Assembly: GCA_024699595.1 (NCBI GenBank)
Contig: JAILPG010000039.1
Coordinates: 1-22,202 of the forward strand
Length of the DNA: 22,202 bases
Source of the DNA: Lachnospiraceae bacterium
Lineage (GTDB): Bacteria > Bacillota_A > Clostridia > Lachnospirales > Lachnospiraceae
Direction of reading: 5' to 3'
A program made the translations under genes and the position numbers. The notes beneath the pieces were generated by a model. The model had not been told where the DNA came from. It saw nothing but the letters and a program-made list of their open reading frames with translations, and did no database searches. Numbering within the stretch: position 1 is the first letter of the stretch; each line of letters opens with the position of its first letter. This document shows positions 4,354 to 7,560 of this stretch, piece after piece.

Positions 4354-5520
4354 ATGGGCAATCATTTCGGAAGCAGGCTTTCGATAAACATATTCGGGCA
4401 GTCACATTCGGATGCCATAGGCGTTACGATAGAGGGACTGCCTGCCGGCTTTTCCATAGACACGGATGAGCTTTCGGGATTTTTAAAAAGAAGAGCTCCC
4501 GGGCAGAGTGAGCTTACGACTGCCAGGAAGGAAACCGATGCATACGAGATAATATGCGGGGTCTGCGATCCTGCCTATGCACCCGGTGAAACTGCATCTG
4601 CCGGGGATATACCTGACGAGTCTGTATCCGGTGAGGCTGCATCTTCCAAGGTCGCATCTGCTGAAACTGGCAGTGTGGTGACCTGCGGGGCACCCCTGAC
4701 CGTTCTTATCAGGAATTCCGATCAGCATTCCAAAGATTATTCAAACATTAAAGACATGCCGCGTCCCGGGCATGCCGACTATACCGCGTCCGTAAAGTAT
4801 GACAGCTATAACGACATACGCGGCGGCGGACAGTTTTCGGGAAGACTTACGGCTCCGCTATGCATAGCAGGCGGCATCGTAAAGCAGCTTCTGAAAAAAC
4901 AGGGAATAGACATATATTCACATATCTACAGCATAAAGGATATAAAGGATACACCCTATCCGCTTACGGGACCGTTTGAGGATGTAAGTGAAAAAGAACT
5001 TCCGGTCATGGATAACAATGTTATCGAACCCATGAAACAACTGATAAGTAAGGCAAAGGCTGACCTCGATTCCGTCGGGGGCATCATTGAATGCGCTGTC
5101 TGCGGGGTCGGCGCAGGTTTTGGAGAGCCTATGTTTGGCGGGGTTGAGAACGTGATATCACAGGCTGTCTTTGCAATACCCGCAGTCAAGGGAATAGAGT
5201 TCGGAAGAGGCTTTGAAGCGGCCGCGCTTTTTGGGAGCGAAAATAACGACAGCTTCATTATAAGAAATGACAGGATATGTACTGAGACTAACAATCACGG
5301 CGGAAGCCTCGGAGGGATCACCTCCGGCATGCCGATAGTCTTCAGGGCTGCCTTTAAGCCCACGCCCTCCATTGCAAGGCCGCAGAAGAGCGTGTCTTTG
5401 TCGAAGATGGAGGAAGGGATCCTTGAGATAAAGGGCCGCCATGACCCCTGCATAGTGTTAAGGGCTCTGCCTTGTGTGGAGGCCGCCGCAGCACTTGCCG
5501 TGTGGGAGCTTATGGGGTAG
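4354..5520 (+). CDS. aroC: Chorismate synthase with a low-complexity insertion
   Basis: This enzyme converts 5-enolpyruvylshikimate-3-phosphate to chorismate, the last step of the shikimate pathway, using reduced FMN; it is cytosolic and usually tetrameric. Family motifs are clear: N-terminal GNHFGSRL and FGQSHSDAIG (His18), LKRRAPGQSELTTARKE (44-60), NSDQHSKDYS, MPRPGHADYT (His140), RGGGQFSGRLTAP, then EFGRGF and the ITSGMPI region. At 388 residues it is longer than usual because of about 34 extra Ala/Ser/Glu/Pro-rich residues at ~71-112, between the EIICGV strand and APLTVLIRN, where the family normally has a short turn. Catalytic motifs on both sides are intact, so the insert is probably a tolerated surface loop. 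The start has GGAG seven bases upstream. No other shikimate genes are in the window. Confidence 0.93.
   Translation: MGNHFGSRLSINIFGQSHSDAIGVTIEGLPAGFSIDTDELSGFLKRRAPGQSELTTARKETDAYEIICGVCDPAYAPGETASAGDIPDESVSGEAASSKVASAETGSVVTCGAPLTVLIRNSDQHSKDYSNIKDMPRPGHADYTASVKYDSYNDIRGGGQFSGRLTAPLCIAGGIVKQLLKKQGIDIYSHIYSIKDIKDTPYPLTGPFEDVSEKELPVMDNNVIEPMKQLISKAKADLDSVGGIIECAVCGVGAGFGEPMFGGVENVISQAVFAIPAVKGIEFGRGFEAAALFGSENNDSFIIRNDRICTETNNHGGSLGGITSGMPIVFRAAFKPTPSIARPQKSVSLSKMEEGILEIKGRHDPCIVLRALPCVEAAAALAVWELMG
4583..4672 (+). repeat. Degenerate 45-base tandem duplication within the aroC insertion
   Basis: CCGGTGAAACTGCATCTGCC at 4583 recurs as CCGGTGAGGCTGCATCTTCC at 4628, exactly 45 bases (15 codons) later, keeping frame. 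A further GCATCTGCTGAAACTGG follows in the second unit. The duplicated peptide is P/S-G-E-T/A-A-S-A/S. This suggests the loop grew by in-frame repeat expansion. Confidence 0.6.
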
Positions 5521-5620
5521 TCAGTGGTGATCAGTGGTGACCGATGGTGATCAGGGTTGATCGGTGGTGAATTGTGGTGTTTTGGAGTGATATATGGTGA
5601 TGTGTGGTGATCAATGGGTG
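5521..5620 (+). repeat. Decamer tandem array directly after aroC
   Basis: Ten consecutive 10-base units start at the base after the aroC stop. The first two are identical (TCAGTGGTGA); the rest decay around TNNGTGGTGA (for example CCGATGGTGA, TCGGTGGTGA, TATATGGTGA, TGTGTGGTGA). The 10-base period rotates through all frames, so the array is not coding. It matches one DNA helical turn. No terminator is seen between aroC and this array. Confidence 0.75.
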
Positions 5621-5641
5621 TTCCGGGTCATCAGCATCCGT

Positions 5642-5670
5642 TTGACGAGGTTTCCCGCATCTGATATATT
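5642..5670 (+). promoter_or_regulatory. Predicted sigma-A promoter of the AGCS symporter operon
   Basis: TTGACG (-35, 5642-5647), a 17-base spacer, then TATATT (-10, 5665-5670), with TG one base before the -10 (extended -10). The predicted start near 5677 gives a 5' leader of about 350 bases that includes the four hairpin modules before the AUG at 6028. Confidence 0.65.
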
Positions 5671-5703
5671 TTATCTCGGTTGGACAACACACTTTTCATA
5701 CTT

Positions 5704-5914
5704 CATACCCACCGGACAGGAGAAAAAAGAGAGTTAGTGGGTATGGAAGAAAGAGAGCATACCTACCAGACTTGAAAAAAACCGAATTAGTAGGTAGAGA
5801 ATTAGCGGAGAATTGGGAAGCATACCCACCAGTCAGCAGAAAAGATAGAATTAGTGGGTATGGAAGAAGAAGAGCATACCTACCGGACCGGCAAAACGAA
5901 CAGATTAATGGGTA
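5704..5914 (+). repeat. Four tandem hairpin modules in the AGCS leader (two ~117-base duplicates)
   Basis: Left arms CATACCCACC or CATACCTACC start at 5704, 5758, 5821 and 5875; matching right arms are GTGGGTATG (5737-5745), GTAGGTAG (5790-5797), GTGGGTATG (5854-5862) and ATGGGTA (5908-5914). Loops are 23-24 bases, A/G-rich and mostly end in ATTAG or GTTAG. Where the left arm changes CCC to CCT, the right arm changes GGG to AGG (copy 2) or pairs T-G (copy 4), so pairing is preserved. Spacing alternates 54, 63, 54 bases; copies 1 and 3, and 2 and 4, are each 117 bases apart, indicating duplication of a two-hairpin unit. It does not match a glycine riboswitch that I can recognise. Confidence 0.75.
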
Positions 5915-6027
5915 AGAATCTGAAAAAAAGCAGAAAAAGAAGATTAGGAAATAAGAAGATAAGAAGAATAATCAGCCAACTAGAGAATAGATGAGAGTAT
6001 AAACAGCAGCAAAAAGAGGAAGAAATT

Positions 6028-7560
6028 ATGGAAGAGTTTATCAGCAATCTGACAAGTATCAACGACAGCATCAACAGCTTTGTGTGGGTGAAGATCGGAC
6101 TTGCGCTCCTTATAGGAACGGGAATCCTGCTTACCATCCTGCTTGGATTTTTCCAGGTAAAGTATATAAAGCACTGGATGCAGAAGACAATCGGCGGAGT
6201 CTTCAAAAAAGACTCTCACAACAAGAATGAGGCCGGATCGGTATCCCAGTTCCAGGCCCTGTGTACCGCACTTGCGGCAACGATCGGAACAGGTAACATC
6301 GCAGGTGTATCGGCAGCTATCTGTCTCGGAGGACCGGGAGCAGTATTCTGGATGTGGGTTGCGGCATTTTTCGGAATGATGACCAACTTCTCAGAAAACG
6401 TACTCGGAATCTATTACAGAAGACGTAATAAAGACGGCGAGTGGTCAGGCGGCGCAATGTACTATTTAAGGGATGGTCTCGGAAACATCCCGGGCTATGA
6501 GAAGCTTGGAAAGATACTTGCCGTGCTGTTCTCACTGTTTGCAGTCCTTGCATCCTTCGGTATCGGAAACATGGGACAGGTAAACAAGATAACGCTTAAC
6601 CTTGAGTCAGCATTCTTCTCAAATGTTAATTCACCGAAGCTCTTTGGCGATGTATCGATGATAAGCTTTATAATCGGCGTGGTGCTGATGCTTGTAGCAG
6701 GTATCATAATAATCGGCGGACTTAAGAGGATCGCAGCCGTTGCAGAGAAGGTCGTACCCTTCATGGCAGTGCTGTATGTACTCGGTGCACTCATCATCTT
6801 CCTGATGCATATCACCAGAGTAGGAGAGATGTTTGCGGCGATCTTCAGATTCGCATTCGGGATCAAAGCAGTTGCAGGCGGTGCAGCAGGCGTGGCGATC
6901 TCACAGGTAGTTACCCAGGGATGTAAGAGAGGTGTGTTCTCCAACGAAGCAGGTCTCGGTTCATCCGTTATGGTACATTCCAATTCAAATGTAAAAGAGC
7001 CTGTAAAGCAGGGACTGTGGGGAATCTTTGAGGTATTCGCAGACACCATGATAGTGTGTACGATGACCGCAGTAGTAGTGCTTTCATCAGGATTTATAGA
7101 TCTTCAGACAGGACTTCCGGTTGAGGGAGTTGACGACGCGACTCTGGTAGCCAAGGCATTCGGATCGGTATTCGGAAAGGCCGGAGAAGGCTTTGTGGCA
7201 CTTGCCGTACTGCTGTTTGCCTTTACGACAGTGCTCGGCTGGTCGCACTACGGCAGCAAGTCGGTTGAGTATCTCTTCGGAGAGACAGGGGTCAGGATAT
7301 ACAGATTCCTCTTTACCATCATGATGGTTTCGGGTGCGGTAATGACTTCATCCCTTGCATGGGATATCTCAGATACCTTTAACGGACTGATGATGATCCC
7401 CAACCTTATCGGTGTGCTGGCGCTGTCGCCGGTTGTTGTAAAGATCACCAGAAACTATATTGACCGTAAGCTAAACGGCAAGGATGTAACGCCTGTTCTG
7501 TCCTATTTCGAGGAGATCCAGACAGAGCATGCCAATGCCGTGGCAAACGGGGAAGAATGA
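6028..7560 (+). CDS. Sodium:alanine/glycine symporter, AGCS family
   Basis: A 510-residue polytopic membrane protein, about eleven hydrophobic segments, of usual length for the alanine or glycine:cation symporter family, which imports small neutral amino acids with Na+ or H+. The signature region TALAATIGTGNIAGVSAAI lies around residues 78-96, followed by GGPGAVFWMW and the FSENVLGIYYR segment. The start is supported by AGAGGAAG upstream. It heads a run of four genes with gaps of at most 15 bases (3 bases to the next gene). A strong promoter and a structured ~350-base leader precede it, so regulation through the leader is likely. Exact substrate (Ala, Gly, Ser) cannot be told from sequence alone. 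Confidence 0.93.
   Translation: MEEFISNLTSINDSINSFVWVKIGLALLIGTGILLTILLGFFQVKYIKHWMQKTIGGVFKKDSHNKNEAGSVSQFQALCTALAATIGTGNIAGVSAAICLGGPGAVFWMWVAAFFGMMTNFSENVLGIYYRRRNKDGEWSGGAMYYLRDGLGNIPGYEKLGKILAVLFSLFAVLASFGIGNMGQVNKITLNLESAFFSNVNSPKLFGDVSMISFIIGVVLMLVAGIIIIGGLKRIAAVAEKVVPFMAVLYVLGALIIFLMHITRVGEMFAAIFRFAFGIKAVAGGAAGVAISQVVTQGCKRGVFSNEAGLGSSVMVHSNSNVKEPVKQGLWGIFEVFADTMIVCTMTAVVVLSSGFIDLQTGLPVEGVDDATLVAKAFGSVFGKAGEGFVALAVLLFAFTTVLGWSHYGSKSVEYLFGETGVRIYRFLFTIMMVSGAVMTSSLAWDISDTFNGLMMIPNLIGVLALSPVVVKITRNYIDRKLNGKDVTPVLSYFEEIQTEHANAVANGEE

Follow-up and report, generated by a model that had tools for sequence, protein, structure and literature searches.

A tandem array of four palindromic units precedes a Na+:alanine symporter gene in a 22,202-nucleotide stretch of DNA from a Lachnospiraceae bacterium (GenBank assembly GCA_024699595.1, contig JAILPG010000039.1), which is here called the window. 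The array probably belongs to a class of palindromic DNA arrays whose home is the 5' flank of genes for a nuclease-like protein, and would be a dispersed copy that lacks the nuclease. The class is defined by three or more units in tandem, each with inverted arms of 7-9 bp a constant distance apart, and by periods of nearly whole helical turns (about 53, 63 and 73-75 bp); the window array has four units with related arms, and its periods are 54, 63 and 54 bp. Judged from the sequence, its arms and their spacing, the period of its units and its context all fit the nuclease-associated class. No nuclease gene was found within the 22-kb window. An earlier note on this DNA had suggested that the four hairpins could be a tandem cis-regulatory RNA; the present results suggest an undescribed repeat-plus-nuclease system, and not a transporter switch.

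Palindromic arrays at nuclease-like genes

In one genome (G403) two arrays enclose an open reading frame of 262 aa, and in a second (G237) a homologue of this frame (54% identical) is likewise flanked on both sides by arrays with this type of arm, which are partly degenerate. The array-associated protein has the core fold of a PD-(D/E)XK nuclease (EDxHD/Vsr-like) and invariant acidic residues; at about 260 aa, it is PD-(D/E)XK-like by fold, and its activity is predicted. Residues 138-262 match the C-terminal ~120 positions of the PADLOC candidate PDC-S68 (E 9.5e-23). Prefoldin-like helical matches of residues 1-90 were uninformative and were set aside. Two members of the family, P0001 and P0002, had no match in NCBIfam; in Pfam there was none for P0001, and one sub-threshold, chance-level match for P0002. 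Homologues occur in 118 (30%) of 397 sampled genomes of one family, the Lachnospiraceae, often in several copies; the highest number in one genome was at least six, six candidates having been scored per genome. The databases contain 2273 such proteins at E 1e-10; three were named among the 120 matches listed, all as 'hypothetical protein'. The family looks chromosomal, because matches in mobile elements were few: two partial ones in a plasmid collection (72,556 records), and in a phage collection (50,697 records) one partial match and one of 93% coverage, the latter in a record of 4.2 kb that is unverified and contains no array. The protein was not confirmed in any viral contig. Neither the protein nor arrays of this kind were found described in the openly accessible literature, and an earlier description is possible.

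The association between array and gene was analysed at 70 nuclease loci, comprising the first 30 and the next 40 by rank among the matches listed. Tandem palindromes of any arm were counted, without reference to the TACCTAC arm. A 7-mer detector found arrays of at least three units at 31 of the 70 nuclease loci (stretches of 2.4-5.8 kb), in none of 203 symporter-gene pieces (up to about 3.7 kb), and in one of 20 stretches of about 5.7 kb from elsewhere in nuclease-bearing genomes (Fisher p 0.001). The single scoring control stretch (L226 4870-5043, in G231) is itself a palindromic array, with TTGGGCA arms. A tolerant detector covering up to 900 nt found arrays upstream of 30/65 nuclease genes, downstream of 4/72 and upstream of 0/75 symporter genes (Fisher p 9e-13 and 2e-8); the upstream nuclease count omits those seven of the 72 loci that have less than 300 nt of upstream sequence, including the array-bearing L142, and the symporter count omits five loci near contig ends. 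At the thresholds used, most nuclease loci (over half) had no array. The arrays were on the 5' side only at 25 of 31 loci, on both sides at four, and on the 3' side only at two. The distance between the nearest unit and the point where homology begins was usually 50-300 nt, and in a few cases larger (up to 943 nt).

The unit periods of these arrays are clustered. Median periods of 30 arrays at nuclease loci were 51-54, 61-64 and 73 bp, with one at 86 bp. A common step of 10.4-10.5 bp fitted the 30 arrays with a phase near zero (R 0.86), which was reached by 0/5000 uniform draws from 48-90 bp. The fit was similar in a kinship-thinned set of 20 arrays (one per group, proteins less than 45% identical; R 0.84), and again 0/5000 draws were as high. 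A tolerant scan of 31 arrays gave the same clusters (51-54, 62-64 and 73-75 bp), together with one mixed array of median 56.5 bp. Mixed spacings of 52 and 62 bp are found in the array of locus L201, and of 54 and 63 bp in the window. Such whole-turn periods point less to an RNA than to a protein lying along one face of the DNA duplex.

Arm sequences and dispersal of the arrays

The arms of the window array were searched for in the same 397 genomes (pattern TACCYACY-N(21-22)-RGTRGGTA). A stricter pattern proved too restrictive, and matched two genomes, once inside a coding frame (L092). The looser pattern matched six genomes, with 36 sites in G403, six in G285, three in G307, and one each in G237, G147 and G135. 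A backwards control pattern matched 13 genomes, with no more than a single match in any of them; therefore, single sites carry little weight alone. Further units adjoin the single sites of G237 and G147. Genus-level searches gave 0/20 for the genus of G002 and 1/2 for the genus of G403. The sites of G403 form arrays with a 63-bp period (eight stretches were examined). Their interiors are alike within one array and different between arrays; the arms, the 31-nt spacing and the period are constant, and spacings of 30 or 32 nt are rare.

The gene contexts of the arrays are varied. One array lies between metG and tatD (gene names read by eye), and another is downstream of a ribosomal-protein cluster with an L10 leader. 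A WYL-domain regulator is preceded by an array in two genomes, with different arms (L119 3662-4660 in G403 and L237 2830-3816 in G246). The gaps in 22 stretches of three arm families were co-directional in nine cases, convergent in four, divergent in five and undetermined in four, as derived from the longest open frames and not from annotation. Three stretches of G403 (L118, L119 and L120) also have a hairpin of similar size with other arms (TTTACAGCCT...AGGCTGTAAA-like), which is cap-like at one array end. The TACCTAC arrays in G307 (L128, L130 and L132) have a period of about 86 bp, and TTTACATAA-type words are present in their linkers. Degenerate tandem repeats of 10-15 bp adjoin several arrays, including that of the window (5521-5611) and those of L267 (459-532 and 1657-1801) and L268 (1228-1356). 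In L267 and L268 they are situated between the array and the nuclease start, and such repeats are perhaps a second component of the array loci.

Most arrays at nuclease genes differ in arm (TTACGGT, TACGCGC, CCGACTG and TTCCCTG, among others). Shared arms were found in three pairs of genomes: TACCTAC in G403 and G237, TACGCGC in G387 and G083, and TACGTAC in G307 and G017. Arms are also genome-typical. The TTACGGT palindrome of the G246 nuclease array has 32 sites in that genome, distributed over several arrays, and 0 or 1 in 11 other genomes; TACGCGC has 43 sites in G387, 48 in G083 and none in 10 others. The TACGCGC-adjacent nucleases of G387 and G083 are 81% identical. Paralogues with unlike arms occur within one genome (L149 and L177 in G387, L145 and L195 in G083, L201 and L203 in G166). 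One array is at the same place in both G387 and G083. Another (G387:C45) lies inside a 327-bp stretch of G387 that is absent from G083, where the flanks abut; this difference is the gain or loss of a whole array.

The arrays could also be operators, bound by a helix-phased regulator. In that case the nuclease-like protein would have become, or would accompany, a repressor, and the dispersed arrays would regulate or sequester without mobility. The whole-turn periods fit such operators, as does the position of most arrays, less than 300 bp in front of the start of homology; in two genomes, arrays with different arms also precede WYL regulators. This explanation is unlikely, since arrays also occupy convergent gaps, the protein has its invariant acidic residues and nuclease-like fold, and copy numbers and one position vary between related genomes.

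The window array and the symporter gene

The features of the window array and its surroundings are listed in Table 1. The arms are CATACCYAC opposite a GTRGGTATG-like sequence, with arm-to-arm distances of 31, 30, 31 and 31 nt in units 1-4, and TACCYAC starts at 5706, 5760, 5823 and 5877. The arms of unit 4 contain one G-U pair plus one C-A mismatch. A count demanding related arms at fixed spacing gave four units in 5642-6027; among 1000 dinucleotide shuffles, 868 had no unit, 129 had one and three had two, and the 109 other pieces of the window had at most two units each. A looser count blind to arm likeness gave three units, a weak result that was reached by 42/2000 shuffles. The 7-mer detector, which wants identical arms, recorded just two units.

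Table 1. Position of the palindromic units and neighbouring features in the window
Feature	Position	Strand	Description
Palindromic unit 1	5704..5745	.	CATACCCAC ... GTGGGTATG; arms 5704-5712/5737-5745
Palindromic unit 2	5758..5796	.	CATACCTAC ... GTAGGTA; arms 5758-5766/5790-5796
Palindromic unit 3	5821..5862	.	CATACCCAC ... GTGGGTATG; arms 5821-5829/5854-5862
Palindromic unit 4, right arm degenerate	5875..5914	.	CATACCTAC ... ATGGGTA; arms 5875-5883/5908-5914
Whole array	5704..5919	.	Units spaced 54, 63, 54 bp; two-unit block duplicated (117 bp)
Degenerate 10-bp tandem repeats, TGGTGATCAG-like	5521..5611	+	Between aroC and window array
Promoter-like site TTGACG-N17-TATATT	5642..5670	+	Not above chance number
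aroC, chorismate synthase (PF01264)	4354..5520	+	Left neighbour of window array
Na+:alanine symporter gene (AGCS; PF01235)	6028..7560	+	Right neighbour of window array

The leading interpretation of the earlier note was a tandem RNA that regulates the symporter operon in cis. In this reading, the four hairpins of the transcript would respond to an amino acid or be bound by a protein. The array indeed lies between a promoter-like site and the symporter start codon, and the leader, if transcribed from about 5677, would fold well. A 351-nt RNA of this region folded better than 100 shuffles (z -4.96), and units 1-3 gave z values of -5.27, -3.21 and -5.13. Unit 4 was no better than chance (z 0.16; 112/200 shuffles were equally good); the claim of four hairpin units thus stands for the four inverted repeats, which never arose in the 1000 shuffles, and not for the fourth RNA fold. 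The claimed compensation of the arms is real at one position (C-G versus T-A), whereas the covariation argument is thin because it rests on this one base pair; moreover, all the copies belong to a single locus, and the same covariation would be shown by a two-sided site of DNA-protein contact. The 117-base duplication is present as described (5704-5919; 1.8 copies, 81% matches). The proposed promoter sequence also exists; however, the number of such matches is near chance (3 found and 1.6 expected, sd 1.4).

The symporter relatives analysed came from one viral contig and from genomes, where the 80 best matches out of 582 were used; the top identity was 79%. Neither TACCYACC nor TTARTRGGTA was found within 700 nt upstream of these 81 relatives, five of which had less than 700 nt of upstream sequence. 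A lone GGTAGGTA- or GGYGGTA-type word was present upstream of eight of the 81, and in the arm-blind search, which covered the upstream regions of 75, arrays were absent whatever the arm. Since the leader is not conserved upstream of the symporter relatives, the tandem cis-regulatory RNA is unsupported. Kindred arrays also occur in all gene orientations, and an RNA gives no reason for whole-turn DNA periods. A search of Rfam 15 with the whole window gave no match at the gathering score, and one with 5600-6040 gave nothing at E 1 or better, in agreement with the earlier statement that no recognised riboswitch class fits. With the fixed-arm pattern the arrays were scattered among gene neighbourhoods, an outcome that the note itself had named as refuting an RNA. 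The results support its fallback, palindromic repeats of one family at scattered places in the genome, and further tie the arrays to a nuclease-like gene family. Taken as a whole, the RNA explanation is very unlikely; the array may still influence symporter expression secondarily. In L002, L003 and L006, a common GGGCAGTAGC...GCTACCGCYCC-like hairpin, followed by a T-rich stretch, is situated directly before the symporter gene; it is possibly an attenuator, unrelated to the window array.

Known systems and the proposed repeat-nuclease system

The repetitive extragenic palindromic (REP) sequences and their clusters, the bacterial interspersed mosaic elements (BIME), are extragenic palindromes of genome-typical sequence in scattered clusters, one of which adjoins a dedicated nuclease gene, the proposed agent of their mobilisation. 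The arrays studied here are alike in being extragenic, palindromic, genome-typical and clustered at multiple loci, with one copy beside a nuclease gene. They could be REP elements mobilised by a Y1/HUH transposase of the REP-associated tyrosine transposase (RAYT) type; a GTAG is contained in the TACCTAC-type arm, and four of nine array genomes have a Y1 transposase. The domain Y1_Tnp (PF01797) was matched in G403, G285, G387 and G083, and unmatched in G237, G307, G246, G147 and G135 (draft assemblies). The REP tag is a fixed GTAG or CGTC at the palindrome foot (PMC3733652); the arms here vary, other arms lack GTAG, and no such fixed tag was found. The gene at the arrays encodes a PD-(D/E)XK-like protein whereas RAYT is Y1/HUH, and the arrays here are tandem with whole-turn periods. 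Because no Y1 transposase was found in five of the nine draft genomes and the tags differ, true REP/RAYT elements are highly improbable. Least probable is a neutral local tandem duplication of chance palindromes, with a common preference of array and nuclease for AT-rich gaps: duplication (117 bp) would explain the likeness within an array, but neither the control counts (0/75 and 0/203 against 30/65 and 31/70), nor identical arms around different interiors in far-apart arrays of one genome, nor the quantised periods.

Other systems share single features with the arrays or the protein. The EDxHD/Vsr-like homing endonuclease I-Bth0305I differs in that the protein here was not seen in an intron, is tied to palindromic arrays, has a long helical N-terminal part, and matches no sequence family. 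TnsA of Tn7, Vsr, Hjc and Bax1 are also PD-(D/E)XK proteins; no TnsB/C-like partner was seen by eye beside the two array-enclosed genes. The likeness to PDC-S68 is confined to its C-terminal ~120 positions; that model covers ~1200 positions, whereas the protein here has 262 aa, a different N-terminus and a repeat array. Clustered regularly interspaced short palindromic repeats (CRISPR) likewise form regular, partly palindromic arrays near a nuclease-like gene; however, the arrays here have no unique spacers, as the linkers repeat with the unit, and the protein is unrelated. The best explanation would be an economy like that of REP and RAYT, but with a nuclease of unrelated type in charge.

The unnamed Lachnospiraceae nuclease family and its own palindromic arrays might form a two-part genetic system, a proposal for which the chances are about even. 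Each nuclease would read its own arm on one face of double-stranded DNA in whole-turn-phased arrays, and would spread or maintain the arrays, or be checked by them, chromosome-wide. Units that repeat at 5, 6 or 7 helical turns would place the half-sites on the same side of the helix, where the nuclease may bind the double-stranded palindromes cooperatively and cut or nick at them. Repair of the breaks could then copy, expand, contract or transplant arrays, comparable to the proposed role of RAYT for REPs. The array before the nuclease gene might also act as an operator that limits the nuclease. The window array would be an outpost of such a system before a transporter gene, and a nuclease would be, or have been, present in its genome. 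Two of ten genomes with symporter relatives encode the nuclease (G002 and G003; symporter identity 79%, the highest), and the G003 copy is interrupted by an internal stop. Upstream of the nuclease, G002 has an array with a 53-bp period and other arms, and G003 has two units 63 bp apart. Two results weigh against a simple cognate model: G285 has arrays yet no detectable nuclease, and arm similarity does not follow protein similarity among 27 arrays.

With a two-part system of this kind, a scattered class of intergenic repeats gains a probable agent, and an unnamed multi-copy protein family gains a testable function. From the whole-turn spacing follows a precise prediction, namely a protein sitting on one face of the DNA. 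The window array is also a warning that stable tandem hairpins in a leader are not necessarily RNA regulators. Repeat-nuclease pairs whose arm changes from gene to gene would amount to a naturally occurring collection of nucleases that each read a specific DNA sequence.
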